From Halobellus inordinatus (GTDB lineage Archaea; Halobacteriota; Halobacteria; Halobacteriales; Haloferacaceae): a DNA stretch of 64,000 nt. Each line of letters begins with the position of its first letter. The stretch's first letter is position 1. The notes beneath the pieces are model-generated. The model had not been told where the DNA came from. It did not search any database and was given only the letters and a program-made list of their open reading frames with translations. Below are positions 46,228 through 62,020 of this stretch, one piece after another. The stretch spans positions 1 to 64,000 of the forward strand of contig NZ_JANHAV010000007.1 of NCBI RefSeq assembly GCF_024464655.1, given 5' to 3'. A program made the translations under genes and the position numbers.

Positions 46228-46386
46228 TTACCGTTCGAACTTGAGCGTTCGATCGGGTTCTTCGGCGACGACCCACCAGTGGAGGTCTTCTTTCGGATGT
46301 CGCCGCTCGATGTGATCTTCCAGCGCTTCGCCCGTCTCGAAATCTTTGCCACAGAGGTTGCATCGGTGATGACGCTTCGACGGCAT
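46228..46386 (-). CDS. Mini C2H2 zinc-finger protein
   Basis: The ATG at 46386 encodes 52 residues. A C2H2 finger is clear: Cys9-X2-Cys12-X12-His25-X4-His30 in the stretch CNLCGKDFETGEALEDHIER. A second segment, LHWWVVAEEPDRTLKFER, ends the protein. Haloarchaea encode many single-finger mini-proteins that act as small regulators or protein adaptors. It is divergent from the CBS-HPF gene with a 162-base gap. Longer frames overlapping it on both strands lack motifs. Confidence 0.85.
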   Translation of the reverse strand: MPSKRHHRCNLCGKDFETGEALEDHIERRHPKEDLHWWVVAEEPDRTLKFER

Positions 46387-46548: not shown

Positions 46549-47763
46549 ATGAACATCAGAGAGATTGCTACGACCGAGTACGAATCGTTCGACGAAGACG
46601 CCCGCGTCTCAAAGCTCGTGGGAACGTTTCAAGAGCGTGGCGTCGACGCGGTGGTCGTCACCTCTGACGGCGACTACGAGGGGCTCGTCACGCGCCGGCA
46701 ACTCAACTCCACCCACCAGAACCCCGACGCCAAAGCGCGGAGCCTGATCTGGAACGTCGGCCGAGTCGGCGTCGACGCGGACGTGCGGACCGTCGCCCGG
46801 TTGATGATCGGCAGCAGCGCGAAGACCCTCCCGGTGTTCGAGGGAGAGGAACTCTACGGCGTCGTCACCGCCGGCGACCTGCTCGCGGCCGTCCAGGAGT
46901 TCCTCGGCGTGCTCACCGTCGAGGACGTGTACACCGAAGACCTCGTCACTGTCTCGCGCGGTGCGACGCTCGGAGAGGTACTCCACACGCTTCGGGACCA
47001 GCGCATCACACACCTGCCGGTGGTCGAAGACGACGACGCCGTCGGCGTCATCAGTATCCACGACGTCCTGGACTTCACCGCTCGTGAGATGGACCGTCGA
47101 CAGGGTGGTTCGCCCGGCGCGGGAACGCAACCCGGTGGCGGGAGTTCCCGCGGGGGCTTCGGTGAACGCGCGGGCGGCCTCGAACGGATGCTCGACCTGC
47201 CGGCGGGGAACGTGATGAGCGAACCGGTCGAGACCACGACGTCTGACCAGTCACTCGACGATGCCGTCGACCAGATGCTGGAGGCCGGGGTCTCCTCGCT
47301 CGTCGTGACCAGCGAGGGCCGACCGGTCGGCATCGTTACCGACACCGACGTCCTGCGGTCGCTCACCTGGGGCGCCGAGACGCATCTCCCCGTCCAGATC
47401 ACGAACGTCGACCTCTTAGACGACATCTCGCGCCCGGACGTCGCCGATCTGATCGAGGACGCCACGCGCAAATACGGCGACCTGACCGTGCTCGAAGCGA
47501 AGGTCTTCCTCCAAGAACACGACGAGACGCTCCGCGGCACGCCGCTGATTATGGCTCGGATTCGACTCTTCACCGACCGGGGACACTTCGTCGGGACCGG
47601 CGAGGGCTACGGCGCGCGACACGCGCTCCACCTGGCGCGGAACGTGGTCGAGCGGCAGATCCTCGAAGGGAAAGAGTACGGGCAGACGAAGAAACACCCG
47701 AGCGACGAGGAACGGTCCAGACTCTACGGCTGGTGGCTCGCCGGCCCCCCACGACAGCAATGA
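46549..47763 (+). CDS. Four-CBS protein with HPF/RaiA-like C-terminal domain
   Basis: The start at 46549 gives 404 residues. Four CBS motifs form two pairs (about 1-120 and 125-290), separated in part by a Gly/Ser linker (GGSPGAGTQPGGGSSRGGFG). The last 110 residues (VQITNVDLLDDISRPDVAD, DLTVLEAKVFLQ, GHFVGTGEGYGARHALHLA) have the beta-alpha-beta pattern of ribosome hibernation factors of HPF/RaiA type. CBS pairs usually bind adenine nucleotides. The likely idea is energy-dependent control of ribosome shut-down; this is inference. The stop overlaps the archease start (ATGA). Confidence 0.8.
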   Translation: MNIREIATTEYESFDEDARVSKLVGTFQERGVDAVVVTSDGDYEGLVTRRQLNSTHQNPDAKARSLIWNVGRVGVDADVRTVARLMIGSSAKTLPVFEGEELYGVVTAGDLLAAVQEFLGVLTVEDVYTEDLVTVSRGATLGEVLHTLRDQRITHLPVVEDDDAVGVISIHDVLDFTAREMDRRQGGSPGAGTQPGGGSSRGGFGERAGGLERMLDLPAGNVMSEPVETTTSDQSLDDAVDQMLEAGVSSLVVTSEGRPVGIVTDTDVLRSLTWGAETHLPVQITNVDLLDDISRPDVADLIEDATRKYGDLTVLEAKVFLQEHDETLRGTPLIMARIRLFTDRGHFVGTGEGYGARHALHLARNVVERQILEGKEYGQTKKHPSDEERSRLYGWWLAGPPRQQ

Positions 47764-48182
47764 CCTACGAACTCTCAGAGCACGCCGTCGACGTCAAACT
47801 CCGGGCGAAGGCCGGTTCGCTCGAACTGGCGTTCGCCGAGATGGTCGACGCGCTCTCGGAACTCGTCGGGGGTCCGACGCAGCCGCAGGCAGATCCGATG
47901 ATCGAGAAGGTCGACCTCACGGCGCGCGACCTCGAAGCCTTGCTCTTCGACTTCCTGAACAAGCTGGTTCTGTGTCAGGATATCGAAAACGCAGTGGTCT
48001 CTAACGCTGGCGACGTCGAAATCCGCGAGACCGAGATGGGCTATCACCTGTCGGCGACGATTTATGCGACCCCCATCGAACCGGACCGGCCGCTGCTCGA
48101 CGTCAAAGCCCCGACGTATAGCCAGATGCGGATCGAACAGGACGACGACGGCTGGACCATCGAGGCGGTTTTGGAGGTGTGA
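47760..48182 (+). CDS. Archease, RtcB activator
   Basis: The 140-residue protein has the archease features: YELSEHAVDVKLRAKA at the start, an acidic loop and LEALLFDFLNKLV in the middle, and a final YSQMRIEQDDDGWTIEAVLEV strand pair. Archease binds RtcB and speeds the guanylylation step of RNA ligation, including tRNA splicing. The start overlaps the stop of the CBS-HPF gene, so the two are made together. The RtcB gene lies 4 kb downstream on the other strand. Confidence 0.93.
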   Translation: MTYELSEHAVDVKLRAKAGSLELAFAEMVDALSELVGGPTQPQADPMIEKVDLTARDLEALLFDFLNKLVLCQDIENAVVSNAGDVEIRETEMGYHLSATIYATPIEPDRPLLDVKAPTYSQMRIEQDDDGWTIEAVLEV

Positions 48183-48252: not shown

Positions 48253-48522
48253 ATGCCACGAATACCCAAGCCGAAGCTGGTCGAACTCGAGGGCGAGTAC
48301 TACCACGTCCGGTTCCGTGACCCAGATGAATTCAGCGAGATCCGGACGCCCGAGTGGGCACAGGAGGCGGCTGCGGAGGTCTCGACGGGCAGTAAAGTCC
48401 GAACGGGCCACAGAAAAGGCAGCGACGAGTGGGTCGTCCAGTCGGTGTTGATCCCCGAAGCCACAGGAAAAACGACCGCCCGCTCCGACGCGCAGAAGAT
48501 CATCGAAAAGCTCGAAGCGTAG
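48253..48522 (+). CDS. Small haloarchaeal protein of unknown function
   Basis: The start at 48253 gives 89 residues with a compact alpha/beta pattern (PKLVELEGEYYHVRFRDPDE, then EEVSTGSKVRTGHRKGS-like basic loop, and a final helix DAQKIIEKLE). No membrane or signal segment is present. A longer upstream frame overlaps archease and is rejected. The function is unknown; the basic centre could bind nucleic acid. Confidence 0.75.
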   Translation: MPRIPKPKLVELEGEYYHVRFRDPDEFSEIRTPEWAQEAAAEVSTGSKVRTGHRKGSDEWVVQSVLIPEATGKTTARSDAQKIIEKLEA

Positions 48523-49630: not shown

Positions 49631-51781
49631 CTACGGCAGCCAACTGGGACAACACCTCGCTTCCGACGGTCGGCCGCTGGCGTTCTCGGATTCGAACGGC
49701 CGCGTTGTGAGCACCTGCTCGTGGCGCGACCGGTCGCGGTAGGCGGTGATGCCCTTGCACCCGAGTTCGATCGCCAGGGCGTACGCGTCTGCGATGTCCT
49801 CGCGGGTTGCGTCGTGTGCGAGGTTGATCGTCTTCGAGATCGCACTGTCGACGTGCGCTTGGAGTGCGGCCTGCATCCGGACGTGGTCCGTGGCGGAGAT
49901 CTCTCCTGCGGTCACGAACAACTCCGCGAGTCCCGTCGGGATCGGCAGATCTGCTGGGCGCTCGAACGTGCCGTCTTCGAGGAGCGACAGCGCACGTCCT
50001 CGAATCTTCTCCGGATCGATACCGTTCGCTTCCAGCGTTCTGAGGAAGTACTCGTCGAACTCGACGAGCATCGCGTCGCCCTGCACGTCCTCGCTCACGT
50101 TCTTGAAATAGAGCACGTTGAACAGTGGCTCACAGCCACCCGAGGTGTTCGCGATCATTCCCGTGGTCCCGGTGGGTGCAATGGTCGTGGTGTTGTGATT
50201 GCGGACCGGGAACCCGTCGTCCCACTCCTCCGGGTCGCCGCCGGTGTGTCGCTCGAACCACTCCGGGTAGTCGGTCGGCGCGGCGTACTTCGAGTGGCCC
50301 CAGTCGGGGAACGAGCCCCGATCGATCGCCAGTTCGTGGCTCGCCTGCGTCGATTCGCGATTGATCGCGGCCATCAGTTGCCGGGCGATCTCGCGTGCGG
50401 GTGGCGCGTCGTACCTGACGCCCAGTTGGATTAGCAACTCGGCGAGGCCCATTATCCCGAGACCGATCTTTCGCATCCGGCCGACCGTCTCGTCGATTTC
50501 GTCGATCGGAAATTCCGACACTGTCAGTACGTCGTCCAGGAAGCGTGTTCCCAGGTGCACGAGGTCGTTCAACCGCCTCCAATCGATCGCCTGCTCCAGA
50601 AACGTCTCGACGGCGGCCGGAAGGTCTCGAATCTCCTCGTTGTGGAACTCGGACCACGTGGCGGCGTCGTCGTCGACCAGCAGCGAGAGGTTCACGTGCC
50701 CGAGCGTACACGCCTCGTACTCTTCTAGTCCCTGCTCGGCACAGGGATTGGTCGCGTCGATCCGATGGGACGGATATCGTTCGACGTCGAAGGAGTGCTG
50801 GCGGTTCGTCTCGTCGATCATGAACAACCCCGGCTCGCCGTTCTGCCACGTCCCGTCGACGACGAGTTCCCAGACGAACCGCGCCGGTAGCGTCATCTCG
50901 GCCCCGACCTCCAGGTCGGTTTCCCCACGATACTCGTCGATCCGCGGGATTTCTTCGGCGTAGTCCCGCCAGAGATTCCGTTCGACTTCGGTCCGCGGGC
51001 CCGACTCGTAGGCCGTGCTGTAGAACTGGGCAGTGGCTTCGGTCACTTCGTGGGGGCCGCCAGTGCTCGGATTCTGAAGCGTGTACCGCGAACCCTCCTG
51101 GACGGCGTCGTAGAAGCAGTCAGTGATCGCCACGGAGAGATTGAAGTTCGTCAAGAGATCCTGTTGCCGCTTCACCGTGCAGAAGCGACCGACGTCGGGG
51201 TGAGTGACGTGAAGGATCCCCATCTGGGCTCCCCGCCGCCGACCTCCCTGCCGGATCTGCTCGCACATCGTGTCGTAGACGTTCATAAACGAGACCGGGC
51301 CGCTGGCGACGCCACCCGTCGATCTGATGTGGTCTCCCCGCGGTCTGAGCTTCGAGAAGGAGTACCCGACGCCGCCGCCGCTCTGCATCACTTTCGCCGC
51401 GCGGCCGAGCGTGCCGAATATGGAATCCAGCGAGTCCGCCGGCGAGAGCACGAAACACGCCGCGAGCTGTTGGATCTCGGTTCCGGCGTTCATCAGCGTT
51501 GGCGAGTTCGGCATAAACGCGAGCCCAGTCATCGCCTCGTAGAACCGCTGCTCCCAGGTGGCCGCGTCAGCGTCCGTCCCGTACTCGCGCTCGGCGCTCG
51601 CGACGGTCGCAGCGACGCGTTCGAACATCTCCGCCGGCGTCTCGATTACCTCACCGGCGGCGTTCGTCCGAAGGTACCGCGCCGGCAGAATCCGTTCGTA
51701 AACGTTCTCGCTGAGCCGCTCTCGGAGCGTCTCGCCGCCGCCTCGCTTCTTGGGGAGTACGAAGTCGCTCGTGTCTATCAT
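49631..51781 (-). CDS. Class II (adenosylcobalamin-dependent) ribonucleotide reductase, short form
   Basis: The 716-residue protein has the class II set: NSPTLMNAGT then AACFVLSP (first redox Cys), NPCAEQ with the thiyl Cys and Glu, EACTLGHVNLS (second redox Cys) and TTIAPTGTTGMIAN. The C-terminus ends RCCPSWLP, with an adjacent Cys pair in place of the long zinc-ribbon tail of the larger haloarchaeal enzymes. It reduces ribonucleotides using coenzyme B12 and needs no oxygen. Its small size and place beside RtcB and archease suggest an auxiliary reductase for stress or repair rather than the housekeeping one. Confidence 0.9.
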   Translation of the reverse strand: MIDTSDFVLPKKRGGGETLRERLSENVYERILPARYLRTNAAGEVIETPAEMFERVAATVASAEREYGTDADAATWEQRFYEAMTGLAFMPNSPTLMNAGTEIQQLAACFVLSPADSLDSIFGTLGRAAKVMQSGGGVGYSFSKLRPRGDHIRSTGGVASGPVSFMNVYDTMCEQIRQGGRRRGAQMGILHVTHPDVGRFCTVKRQQDLLTNFNLSVAITDCFYDAVQEGSRYTLQNPSTGGPHEVTEATAQFYSTAYESGPRTEVERNLWRDYAEEIPRIDEYRGETDLEVGAEMTLPARFVWELVVDGTWQNGEPGLFMIDETNRQHSFDVERYPSHRIDATNPCAEQGLEEYEACTLGHVNLSLLVDDDAATWSEFHNEEIRDLPAAVETFLEQAIDWRRLNDLVHLGTRFLDDVLTVSEFPIDEIDETVGRMRKIGLGIMGLAELLIQLGVRYDAPPAREIARQLMAAINRESTQASHELAIDRGSFPDWGHSKYAAPTDYPEWFERHTGGDPEEWDDGFPVRNHNTTTIAPTGTTGMIANTSGGCEPLFNVLYFKNVSEDVQGDAMLVEFDEYFLRTLEANGIDPEKIRGRALSLLEDGTFERPADLPIPTGLAELFVTAGEISATDHVRMQAALQAHVDSAISKTINLAHDATREDIADAYALAIELGCKGITAYRDRSRHEQVLTTRPFESENASGRPSEARCCPSWLP

Positions 51782-51961: not shown

Positions 51962-53405
51962 TCAGCCCTTGATGTTGGCGATGGGGTACGTCCGGGCGAC
52001 CTTGGTACCGATCCCGAGAGCGTCGCTGACGCGGATGACCTCGTCGACGTCCTTGTACGCGCCCGGTGCTTCCTCGACAAGCGTCCCGCCCGACCGCGCT
52101 CGCACGTAGATGCCCTGCTCGCGGAGCTGTCGCTGGAGTTCGTTCGCGGAGTACTCCGCTTTGGCTTGCGTCCGCGACATCACCCGACCGGCACCGTGTG
52201 CCGTCGACCCGAACGTTCGGTCGAGTGACTGCTCGCCCCCGCACAGCACGTACGACGAGGATCCCATACTCCCGGGGATGAACACCGGCTGTCCGACCGC
52301 TCGATACGCCTCCGGGACCTCGGGCCGGCCTGCCGGGAACGCGCGCGTCGCCCCTTTCCGATGGACGAGAACCGTTTCTTCGCTCCCGTTGACGTGGTGT
52401 CGCTCCTCCTTGGCGATGTTGTGACACACGTCGTAGACGAGCTCGACGTCGGTAACGTCGAGCAGATCGTCGAACACCTCGCGAACACCCTGCGTCATCG
52501 CCTGTCGGTTCGCCCACGCGAAGTTCGCGGCCGCGTACATCGCGGCCTTGTAGTCTTCGGCGATCCGCTCCTCCAACGGTGCGTAGATCAGCTGGCGGTC
52601 CGGCAACTCGTCGGCAATCTCGGGGAACGCCCGCTCGAACCGGCGGATGTACTCGCTACAGACCTGATGGCCGAGGCCGCGCGACCCCGAGTGGATCATC
52701 ACGACGACGTTGTCGGGGCGCAGGCCGAACGCTGCAGCGGTCTCGTCGTCGTAGATCTCGGCGACGCGATGGACTTCGAGGAAGTGATTCCCCGACCCGA
52801 GCGATCCGACCTGGTTGTGACCGCGGTTCATCGCCTCTGCAGGGACCTTCCGCGGGCTCCCCGGCAGTCGACCGTTCTCCTCGCAGTGTTCGAGGTCAGC
52901 CGGAACCGCGTGCCCGTGTTCGAGCATCCACTGCATCCCGTGAGTGAGGATGCCGCGGAGGTCGTCCATATCCGTGTCGAGATAGCCGCCCTTCCCGAGC
53001 CCGCACGGAATCGTCTCGTAGAGTCGTTCGACGAGCTCTTCTTCACGTCCCTCGACGTCGTCGTACTCCAGCGGGGTCCGCAGGAGCCGGACGCCGCAGT
53101 TGATGTCGAAACCCGATGCCCCCGGGGCTGATCACCCCCGTTTCCGTGTCGACGGCGGCGACGCCACCGATCGGGAAGCCGTACCCATGATGGCCGTCCG
53201 GGAGGACGACCGCGAACTTCCGAATGCCCGGCAAGGTCGCGACGTTCCGCCCCTGCGTGAGCGTCTGATTGTCGCCCCGCTGCAGTTCTTCGACGAGCTG
53301 CTCCGATCCGTACACGCGCACCGGCACGCGCATCGCACCGTCTCGTGGTATCTCGTAGATGTTCGTTGCAACTTCCGCGAGTTCGATTTGCTCTGGCTCT
53401 GTCAT
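51962..53405 (-). pseudogene. rtcB: RNA-splicing ligase RtcB, interrupted by a one-base frameshift
   Basis: The ATG at 53405 starts [20 protein letters not shown] and reads to [10 protein letters not shown]. It then goes out of frame at an AAA run (plus strand 53109-53111), which reads GGG TTT CGA. Removing one T gives GGG TTC GAC and restores [15 protein letters not shown], including the conserved metal-binding Cys, through to the normal C-terminus (YPIANIKG). All other RtcB blocks are intact: EAMNRGHNQVGSLGSGNHFL, VMIHSGSRGLGHQV and PGSMGSSSYV. The full product of about 480 residues would join 2',3'-cyclic phosphate and 5'-OH RNA ends. A sequencing error, a fresh mutation or ribosomal frameshifting could each explain it. 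Confidence 0.88.
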
Positions 53406-59690: not shown

Positions 59691-60065
59691 ATGCCAGACC
59701 GCACTCGATCCACACTCGCCAGCGCACAGCCTCGCGGTCGTCCTGCGACCGACCGATCGCGATCGTTCCCCGTCGACGTGGCCGACCGCGGTGACCGCTT
59801 TCTCGTGTCGGCCGAACTCCCGGGCCTACGAACTCAAGAGATCGACGTCACGGTCCGTAAGAACAAACTCCAGATCGTCGCCGAACCCACGACGGAGACG
59901 GACGGCACGTACCGCCGGCGTGAGCGTGACTCGGGGACGCTCCGGCGCGTAATTCATCTCCCCGAAGCGGTCGACGAGAAACACGTCTCCGCGTCCTACA
60001 ACGACGGGATTCTGTGGGTCACGCTGCAGAAACGGGACCAACCGACGCACGTCGAGATCCAGTGA
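59691..60065 (+). CDS. Hsp20/alpha-crystallin family protein, short
   Basis: The 124-residue protein is an alpha-crystallin domain with a short Arg/Ser/Pro N-terminus. The blocks are FLVSAELPGLRTQEIDVTV, RRVIHLPEAVDEKHVSASYN and DGILWVTLQKRD. The C-terminal tail is very short and lacks the usual I-X-I/V motif, so large oligomer formation may be reduced. It acts as an ATP-independent holdase. A second, more typical Hsp20 is at 61568-62020. Confidence 0.9.
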   Translation: MPDRTRSTLASAQPRGRPATDRSRSFPVDVADRGDRFLVSAELPGLRTQEIDVTVRKNKLQIVAEPTTETDGTYRRRERDSGTLRRVIHLPEAVDEKHVSASYNDGILWVTLQKRDQPTHVEIQ

Positions 60066-60100
60066 CTGCCGGGCGCCTCGGCGCCCCCTGTGTGCTTCGA

Positions 60101-60718
60101 CTACAGGTACGATCTCGCTTCGTCGTCGGTGACCTGCACGAACGAGTCGTAGAACTGCCCGACGGCCCCGAAGTGTGACGGCTCGGCGACGCAGATCACT
60201 TCGTCGGCTTCCGAACGCAACCGCTCGGCCGTGTCGGGCGGTGCGACCGGGACCGCCAAAATCACGCGTTCGGCCCCCGACTGCTCGACTTGCCGGATGC
60301 AGGCGGTCGTCGTGGCGCCGGTCGCGACGCCGTCGTCGACGACCAGCACCGTCTTCCCCCGAAGATCGGGTGCCGACCGATCGCCGCGGTAGCGTTCGAC
60401 CTTCTCCTGTGCCGCCTCGCGCTCGCGTTCGATCCGCTCGTCGACGTAGGGGTCCGGGACCCGCAGGTCGCCGATCAGTGACTCGTTCAGCCAGACGGTG
60501 CCGTCGCTGGCGACGGCGCCGATCGCCAGTTCCGGGCTCTGCGGCGCACCGATCTTTCGGGCTGCGACGATGTCGAGCGGGAGGCCGAGCGCATCGGCGA
60601 CGGCGCGTCCGACGGGCAGGCCACCGCGCGGGATCGCGAGGACGATGTCCGCATCGACGCCTCGCGTTTCGAGGACGTCGGCGAGCTGTCGACCGGCGTC
60701 GGCTCGATCTTCGAACAT
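60101..60718 (-). CDS. Phosphoribosyltransferase family protein
   Basis: The ATG at 60718, with GGGTGAG eight bases upstream, gives 205 residues. A GTG at 60733 is an alternative. The PRPP loop is in KTVLVVDDGVATGATTTACI. The N-terminal VLAIPRGGLPVGRAVADALG and an acidic-aromatic end complete the type I PRTase fold. This subgroup is often fused to a dienelactone-type hydrolase; here the hydrolase is a separate gene at 53605. The base or acceptor is unknown. The start nearly touches the stop of the upstream winged-helix gene. Confidence 0.9.
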   Translation of the reverse strand: MFEDRADAGRQLADVLETRGVDADIVLAIPRGGLPVGRAVADALGLPLDIVAARKIGAPQSPELAIGAVASDGTVWLNESLIGDLRVPDPYVDERIEREREAAQEKVERYRGDRSAPDLRGKTVLVVDDGVATGATTTACIRQVEQSGAERVILAVPVAPPDTAERLRSEADEVICVAEPSHFGAVGQFYDSFVQVTDDEARSYL

Positions 60719-60733
60719 TCGAGGCTCACCCAC

Positions 60734-61078
60734 TCATTTGAACGAGACCCCGACGTCGGTCGCACGCGTCTCCTGTGGGGAAATCGTGACCTGTATCTGA
60801 TCGATCGGACACGCGTACTGGTGCGGGTGTTTGCCGTCGGTGGAAAATTGGACCGCCTCCTCCAGGAGCGGCACCGCGCTGAGCTGATCGAGTTTGCGAT
60901 AGACGGTCGAGAGTGGAAGATTCAATCGTTCGGACAGTTCACGTGCGGTCAACGACTGCTCGGACGTCGAGGCGAGTATCGCTCGACACTTCGGATCGCT
61001 CAGCGCGGTGAGTGCCTCCTGCGTCTGTTCGTCGACGTCGCCAAATTCCACTGTCGACTCCGCTGACTTCGGAACCAT
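60734..61078 (-). CDS. Winged-helix transcription regulator
   Basis: The 114-residue protein has an ArsR/MarR-like winged helix (ALSDPKCRAILASTSEQSLTA then PLSTVYRKLDQLS), followed by a beta strand end (YACPIDQIQVTISPQET). It directly precedes the phosphoribosyltransferase on the same strand with a small gap, so it probably controls that operon and itself. No metal-binding cysteine pair is seen. TATA-like TTTATAG lies about 30 bases upstream. Confidence 0.87.
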   Translation of the reverse strand: MVPKSAESTVEFGDVDEQTQEALTALSDPKCRAILASTSEQSLTARELSERLNLPLSTVYRKLDQLSAVPLLEEAVQFSTDGKHPHQYACPIDQIQVTISPQETRATDVGVSFK

Positions 61079-61106
61079 AGTACCGCGTTATACTGTTCAA
61101 CAAGCG

Positions 61107-61113
61107 TTTATAG
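61107..61113 (-). promoter_or_regulatory. TATA box of the regulator-PRTase operon
   Basis: On the minus strand CTATAAA is centred about 32 bases before the ATG at 61078, ideal for a leaderless transcript. Element A copy 5 begins about 50 bases further upstream. Confidence 0.55.
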
Positions 61114-61165
61114 TGCTTCGGCTTGGTCCTCGAAGGTGTTCATACACCGGGACACCGCCCGGTGG

Positions 61166-61332
61166 CTATGGTAGCGTTTGCACGTCTTCACTCACCTAAT
61201 CGCACGCAGTCGTGCGATTGGCTGTGTAATCATAGGGACTATCGTACGTCCTCATAGATTTCTCGCCGGACGGGACGGCGAGACTCTCCGAACAGTGACG
61301 ATAATCCCTATCAGTTGCAAACGCTACAATAG
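61166..61332 (+). mobile_element. Palindromic element A, copy 5, interrupted by element B
   Basis: Left end CTATGGTAGCGTTTGCACG and right end CAGTTGCAAACGCTACAATAG belong to family A. They are separated by an inserted family B element (61233-61310). Subtracting 78 bases of B and one 3-base TCA duplication from 167 leaves 86, exactly the length of intact family A copies. Confidence 0.85.
61233..61310 (-). mobile_element. Palindromic element B, copy 3 (78 bp), nested in element A
   Basis: Ends are TAGGGACTATCGT and ACGATAATCCCTA-type repeats, flanked on both sides by TCA (61230-61232 and 61311-61313). The orientation is opposite to copy 2 as judged by the GGACGGGACGG interior. The exact duplication shows that B inserted by a transposition-like event after A was already in place. 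Confidence 0.88.
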
Positions 61333-61456
61333 CGGACTGCTCGACTGCGGTTCGTCTCGCTGGCACGGCGTGTGCGACGCCTGTGTACTCCGTTGCAAAC
61401 GTCCGACGTATTCGACGAGAAAGTGGCTCCGCGTCCAGTTTCTGACGAGCGGCGTC

Positions 61457-61542
61457 CTGTAGTAGCATTTGCAACCGATTGCACACCGGACCACACGCTG
61501 TCGTGCGAGCGGGTGCGTGAAGACGTGCAAATGCTACTAAAG
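61457..61542 (-). mobile_element. Palindromic element A, copy 6 (86 bp, reversed)
   Basis: Ends are CTGTAGTAGCATTTGCAA and GTGCAAATGCTACTAAAG; the GTGCGTGAAGACG block lies at the right, so the copy is reversed. It starts 124 bases after copy 5 and ends 26 bases before the 3' end of the Hsp20 gene. Confidence 0.78.
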
Positions 61543-61567
61543 CTGTTATGAACTGCGGTCCGTCTCC

Positions 61568-62020
61568 CTACTCTTCTTCGATGTCTATCGTGCGGGCTTC
61601 TTCGATTTCGAGTTTCGGGAGTGTGACCGTCAGCACGCCGTTTTTCATCCGCGCGCTTACGTTCTCCTTGTCGATATCGTCGGGTAGTCGGATCGATCGG
61701 TGCATCGACTGCTGGCGTCGCTCGTGCCGGAGGTACTGCTCTTCTTCTTTCTCGACGTCAGATTCGCGCTCGGCTTCGATCCGGAGCGTGTGATCTGTCA
61801 CCTGAAGGCTGACGTCGTCTCGCTCGAACCCTGGGAGATCGACGGTGACGAGGAATTCGTCGTCGTGCTCGACGAGGTCGAGCGCCATCGATTCGAACTC
61901 CGTGGACCATCGGCTGAGCGGCCCCTCGGACTCCCAGATCCGAGACGAGTTGTCGAACTGTCTACTCATCCGCTCGAACAGGCGTTCGAGCTCTTCGAAT
62001 GGGTTACTGCGTGCGCTCAT
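61568..62020 (-). CDS. Hsp20/alpha-crystallin family chaperone
   Basis: The 150-residue protein has a typical N-terminus (RSNPFEELERLFERMSRQFD) and an alpha-crystallin domain (about 45-140). Its blocks are FLVTVDLPGFERDDVSLQV, RSIRLPDDIDKENVSARMK and NGVLTVTLPKLE, and the end is Glu-rich. It is a small heat-shock holdase. An A/T-rich tract with GATTATTTGC about 50 bases upstream of the start is the likely promoter. The 3' end faces two palindromic elements. Confidence 0.93.
   Translation of the reverse strand: MSARSNPFEELERLFERMSRQFDNSSRIWESEGPLSRWSTEFESMALDLVEHDDEFLVTVDLPGFERDDVSLQVTDHTLRIEAERESDVEKEEEQYLRHERRQQSMHRSIRLPDDIDKENVSARMKNGVLTVTLPKLEIEEARTIDIEEE

Follow-up and report, generated by a model that had tools for sequence, protein, structure and literature searches.

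An accessory HibA-family gene overlaps an archease gene near a frame-broken RtcB2 RNA ligase gene in Halobellus inordinatus

The closest described relative of the protein considered here is HibA, an archaeal ribosome hibernation factor that joins a CBS module to an HPF/RaiA domain and that, in the excerpted text of its April 2026 description, sits on 70S ribosomes in three conformations, occupies the tRNA and mRNA sites, and protects the ribosomes (PMC13324472). In the same excerpts, the CBS module is more than a sensor, plugging the large subunit itself, the loop of P. abyssi HibA lies in the peptidyl-transferase centre, and T. barophilus lacking HibA shows smaller 70S pools and later recovery (PMC13324472). 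The fusion of CBS and HPF domains is therefore not in itself new. Archease activates the RNA ligase RtcB, and residues D95 and D65 are required for activity of P. horikoshii RtcB, according to excerpts of PMC3973293. A bacterial module for ribosome repair pairs a sporadic ligase, RtcB2, with a factor, PrfH, that enters damaged ribosomes (PMC9223846, excerpt). The sequence TTT-CGn is a described +1 frameshift motif, and the haloviruses in the excerpted study also carry RtcB (PMC7230728); in the excerpt of a review from 2021 on archaeal recoding, the only +1 case named is that of a haloarchaeal virus (PMC8211752).

We analysed a stretch of 64,000 nucleotides of H. inordinatus (positions 1 to 64,000 of contig NZ_JANHAV010000007.1; hereafter the window). 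The features discussed below are collected in Table 1, where L042 is Halobellus sp. Atlit-31R, L072 (the same as G170) belongs to another genus, and L092 is a plasmid of Haloarcula pelagica, from another family.

Table 1. Features of the island in the window, with positions counted from the first nucleotide of the window.
Feature	Position	Strand	Remarks
Possible 52-aa C2H2-type zinc-finger small protein, divergent from HibA	46228..46386	-	Also in L042
P0001, HibA-family paralog, 404 aa	46549..47763	+	CBS module, residues 1-about 275; HPF/RaiA-type C-terminal domain
Disordered Gly/Ser-rich loop, P0001 residues 183-209	47095..47175	+	pLDDT <50; at the place of the P. abyssi HibA PTC loop
GGFG in the P0001 loop, residues 202-205	47152-47163	+	
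HPF/YfiA-fold C-terminal domain, P0001 residues 277-378	47377..47682	+	Model pLDDT 89.8
HibA/archease stop-start overlap ATGA	47760..47763	+	HibA TGA 47761-47763; archease ATG 47760-47762
Second archease of the genome, 140 aa	47760..48182	+	PF01951 1.7e-26, 93.6 bits vs cut-off 25
Small ORF, 89 aa, no family	48253..48522	+	74% conserved in L042
Stand-alone two-CBS protein, 125 aa	48569..48946	+	PF00571 4.2e-27
Ribonucleotide reductase large chain	49631..51781	-	PF02867 1.6e-122; same island in L042
RtcB2 RNA ligase, two frames	51962..53405	-	ATG at 53405; 98 codons, followed by 382 in the +1 frame
Putative +1 frameshift site GGG_TTT_CGA	53106..53114	-	Same in L042, L072, L092

An earlier note on this DNA had described P0001 as a 404-residue protein with four CBS motifs and a C-terminal segment resembling HPF/RaiA; both parts of that description hold, and its coordinates were exact. 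A Pfam search returned four PF00571 CBS stretches (1.2e-40) and named no family for the C-terminal part. Residues 1-399 match PDB chain 9l96_a at 1.2e-114 with residue 1 aligned on residue 1, which identifies the ATG at 46549 as the correct start. P0001 also matches ribosome-bound P. abyssi HibA (9sr9_H) over residues 5-374 (7.9e-33; profile 1.5e-67), and residues 279-404 alone match the same chain at 2.8e-9. Structure prediction, which the earlier note had proposed as a check, gave a C-terminal model whose best 21 matches among PDB folds are all YfiA, HPF, RafH or protein Y chains. In a fold search, the full-length model also resembled the ribosome-bound CBS proteins Sri of Methanosarcina and Dri of Pyrobaculum (9e7f, 9znf, 9zng), as well as AMPK gamma. 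A literature search found no paper on a haloarchaeal ribosome-hibernation structure. Judged by homology and predicted fold, P0001 is a HibA-family ribosome hibernation factor and an accessory paralog, which would be expected to bind ribosomes.

The genome encodes two further HibA copies, at C18:258032 (50%) and C19:35690 (44%). At least one HibA is present in all 79 sampled genomes of the class (haloarchaea), and two or more are present in 24 of them, as counted from the table. In a tree of 50 HibA sequences, a housekeeping clade (13 rows, 100/100) stands apart from the accessory ones; RtcB-linked HibA proteins group in a single clade of 8 (99/91), with a further linked HibA (L091) falling outside it. 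The two types also differ in the loop region, where the pattern GG-x-G-x-R occurs in 36/36 accessory or linked rows, one of them (L108) caught at an earlier GGEG and also containing GGYG, compared with 0/13 housekeeping rows. The longer Gly-rich loop of P0001 might reach further than that of P. abyssi HibA. What is new about P0001 is that it is an accessory paralog bearing this Gly-rich loop, additional to the HibA found throughout the sampled genomes. One locus (G049:C11:50222-52575, minus strand) holds two tandem HibA genes, of housekeeping and accessory type by identity. The viral contigs searched contained no HibA-R.

The stop codon of the P0001 gene overlaps the start of the archease gene, as the earlier note had observed, and the same ATGA is kept in Halobellus sp. 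Atlit-31R. Full-length copies of archease (C17:94208) and RtcB (C23:56119) lie elsewhere in the genome, making those of the window second copies. Direct HibA-archease overlap was found only in the two Halobellus genomes; in the other genomes of the 79-genome sample, read by eye, HibA and archease are separated by about 18 kb or more or sit on different contigs, or else no archease was found. By analogy with described RtcB-archease pairs, the window archease would activate RtcB2 of the same island. Near the island, window positions 59691-62020 hold two Hsp20 genes, a phosphoribosyltransferase gene and an HTH regulator gene, and Hsp20 and phosphoribosyltransferase genes recur beside RtcB2 in L072 and L073.

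The RtcB clade of the window (here called RtcB2) is represented by 22 loci in 391 genomes, and the surroundings of 21 of these, the window included and G382 left out, were studied. HibA adjoins RtcB2 in 8/21 loci (window, G244, G261, G078, G304, G210, G112 and G245), archease is near RtcB2 in 10/21, both are present in 1/21 (the window), and neither in 4/21. Neither RtcB2 nor archease was near any of 27 other accessory HibA loci or 13 housekeeping HibA loci used as controls; G049 and a partial G069 copy were left out of this count. Among 12 close HibA matches in the 391 genomes, 7 are beside RtcB2 and 5 are not (G141, two in G258, G273 and G175). Independent cases are few, since 6 of the 8 HibA-RtcB2 loci belong to one genus (g6). 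The two genes are divergently adjacent in g6 and closely adjacent in g15, and the HibA genes concerned come from two separate lineages. Outside the 391-genome sample, L042, the single locus found in one scan of genome contigs, has both HibA and archease, and the island is kept there over about 14 kb. The association of HibA with RtcB2 is thus real but patchy, and an archease gene immediately following HibA is peculiar to Halobellus. The earlier note had suggested an operon coupling hibernation to RNA repair: the data support a tie to RNA repair, chiefly by way of RtcB2, with which P0001 may act jointly, and the direct coupling to archease is confined to the two Halobellus genomes.

A separate locus on a Halorussus halophilus plasmid (L094, NZ_CP044524.1; the G273 locus by its coordinates) encodes a close HibA paralog with rtcA about 4 kb upstream, together with an extra 30S ribosomal protein S17e, ppsA, a CBS protein, a B12-dependent reductase and a nitroreductase. 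This gene set resembles the mycobacterial DosR dormancy set.

The PF01139 domain of the window RtcB2 is complete over two frames (positions 1-47, then 47-426) rather than within a single open reading frame. The first frame ends ...ISPGGIG and the +1 frame begins FDINCG, just before the catalytic DINCG motif. Without a shift, a TGA at 53043-53045 would stop RtcB2 after 22 further codons, and the second frame offers no further ATG or GTG until 52969, beyond DINCG, so a separately started piece would lack this motif. An active window RtcB2 therefore needs a frameshift. If, as we assign them, D65 is in PDGH and D95 in FDINC, the two required aspartates would fall in different frames. The extra base is common to the window, L042, L072 and L092, and the remaining RtcB2 rows are in frame. 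The broken gene is under purifying selection: shifted rows compared with one another give dN/dS of about 0.07-0.21 before the break and 0.08-0.21 after it, similar to in-frame pairs (L087 was left out of the dN/dS table and the tree, and the tree also omits L093, which duplicates L075). Moreover, the longest invariant stretch of RtcB2 among the four shifted genomes, 20 nt, falls on the shift site, where the codon TTT is rare (3.1 per 1000 codons in the predicted genes of the window). These features suggest that the break is probably a programmed +1 frameshift.

A Shine-Dalgarno-like GGGGGTG lies upstream of the site in 4/4 shifted rows compared with 0/19 in-frame rows listed (L093 duplicating L075, L087 excluded). 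A spacing of about 20 nt is far for a +1 stimulator, and the element is therefore not relied on here. No downstream RNA structure acting as a stimulator was found, with z of -0.74 to 0.65 for shifted rows against mononucleotide shuffles. The RtcB tree did not recover a single origin of the shift, placing the 4 shifted rows with 3 in-frame rows in one polytomy. The shift pattern did not prove to be common in RtcB: a first search pattern for it matched 5/292 genomes, of which three proved to be ordinary in-frame RtcB read as GTG GGT; a tighter pattern matched 3/170 family genomes, one of them (G410) apparently the genome of L042 itself, judging from contig position. The viral contigs searched held only distant RtcB relatives and no shift site, and no RtcB with a frameshift appeared among the literature matches listed, as far as titles or abstract openings tell.

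The reading we favour, with reasonable confidence, is that P0001 is an accessory HibA that stores 70S ribosomes and is encoded with archease and near RtcB2 for joint repair, with RtcB2 made through a +1 slip. Under stress, the HPF/RaiA-like domain of P0001 would occupy the mRNA channel and decoding centre of the small subunit, and the four-CBS module with its long Gly-rich loop would occupy the tRNA sites and peptidyl-transferase centre of the large subunit; with both parts bound, idle 70S ribosomes would be held intact. Archease would activate RtcB2, which would seal 2',3'-cyclic-phosphate and 5'-OH ends of cut tRNA or rRNA. The placement of the HibA gene with archease and near RtcB2 could then reflect stored ribosomes and broken RNAs being kept and repaired together. 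If RtcB2 is made only when a ribosome slips +1 at GGG_UUU_CGA, how much ligase is produced would depend on translational state.

A less probable but still serious account is that P0001 is a plain accessory HibA without any tie to RNA repair, lying in a stress island that gathers Hsp20, CBS, reductase, ligase and hibernation genes, all useful under stress. The 27 control loci free of RtcB2 and archease, and the Hsp20, alpha/beta-hydrolase and phosphoribosyltransferase genes also found in the islands, are in keeping with this account; it is opposed by the divergent (g6) and the close (g15) adjacency of HibA and RtcB2, in which two HibA lineages take part, and by the island shared within Halobellus. 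How P0001 would be controlled is a further point of disagreement. The earlier note had proposed that energy-sensing CBS pairs tell the HPF-like domain when to act, and the invariance of CBS4 residues T264 and D267 across 50 HibA rows and the binding of AMP (Kd 12 uM), ADP and ATP by HibA-CM (PMC13324472, excerpt) would suit such a switch. However, the excerpts also report that native HibA complexes contain no nucleotide and that adding AMP or ATP to reconstitutions did not clearly change the ribosome-bound states (PMC13324472), so the HibA data do not back the proposal, and we consider switching of the HPF domain by AMP/ATP unlikely.

The frame break could instead be a shared gene-killing mutation, with the open frames a leftover. 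A single base does break RtcB2, and the copy in Haloarcula pelagica has no annotated protein, but the window and L042 share the break although they differ at dS of about 0.56, their dN/dS is about 0.16 and the 382 codons are free of stops, and L072 and L092 are alike in sharing both the break and the constraint. We therefore hold gene death to be quite improbable, and favour recoding within the storage-and-repair reading given above. A bolder extension, for which we would claim only a slim chance, makes HibA-R, archease and RtcB2 an archaeal ribosome salvage-and-repair module, equivalent in function to PrfH-RtcB2 of bacteria, in which the HPF domain would clamp ribosomes cut in the decoding centre, the GG-x-G loop would extend into the peptidyl-transferase centre and free the stuck peptide, by analogy with the peptide-freeing GGQ loop of release factors, RtcB2 with archease would reseal the rRNA, and the UUU_CGA +1 shift would tune the ligase to ribosome state. 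If true, the module would contain a programmed +1 frameshift that is cellular and conserved in Archaea.

Compared with HibA of P. abyssi and T. barophilus, P0001 has the same four CBS motifs, C-terminal HPF/RaiA domain and topology, and matches over its full length; it differs in being an extra copy beside a housekeeping ortholog, in its longer Gly-rich GG-x-G loop, and in lying beside RtcB2 and archease, whereas the main text of PMC13324472 mentions neither archease, RtcB or ligase, nor an operon or gene neighbourhood. As in the rtcB-archease operon outlined in excerpts of PMC3973293, an archease gene is near an rtcB gene, but the window archease follows HibA, and RtcB2 is about 3.8 kb off, on the other strand and frame-broken. 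Likewise, the excerpted RtcB2-PrfH module has a second, sporadic RtcB adjoining the gene for a ribosome-entering protein (PMC9223846); in the window, a hibernation factor takes the place of the release factor as partner, and the name RtcB2 is shared as a label only. Dri and Sri, which our fold search matched, also place CBS modules on archaeal ribosomes, Dri having two such modules without HPF in the excerpts of PMC13324472 and Sri being compared by description only. Through the conserved neighbourhood, a hibernation family only recently described in archaea becomes linked to RNA ligation, and repair of stored ribosomes becomes testable; separately, the break makes RtcB2, a cellular gene, a candidate for conserved +1 recoding in archaea. 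The locus is thus ordinary as a protein fusion, given HibA (2026), but new by its paralog, its loop and its neighbourhood, and its island also contains a recoding candidate that was not expected.
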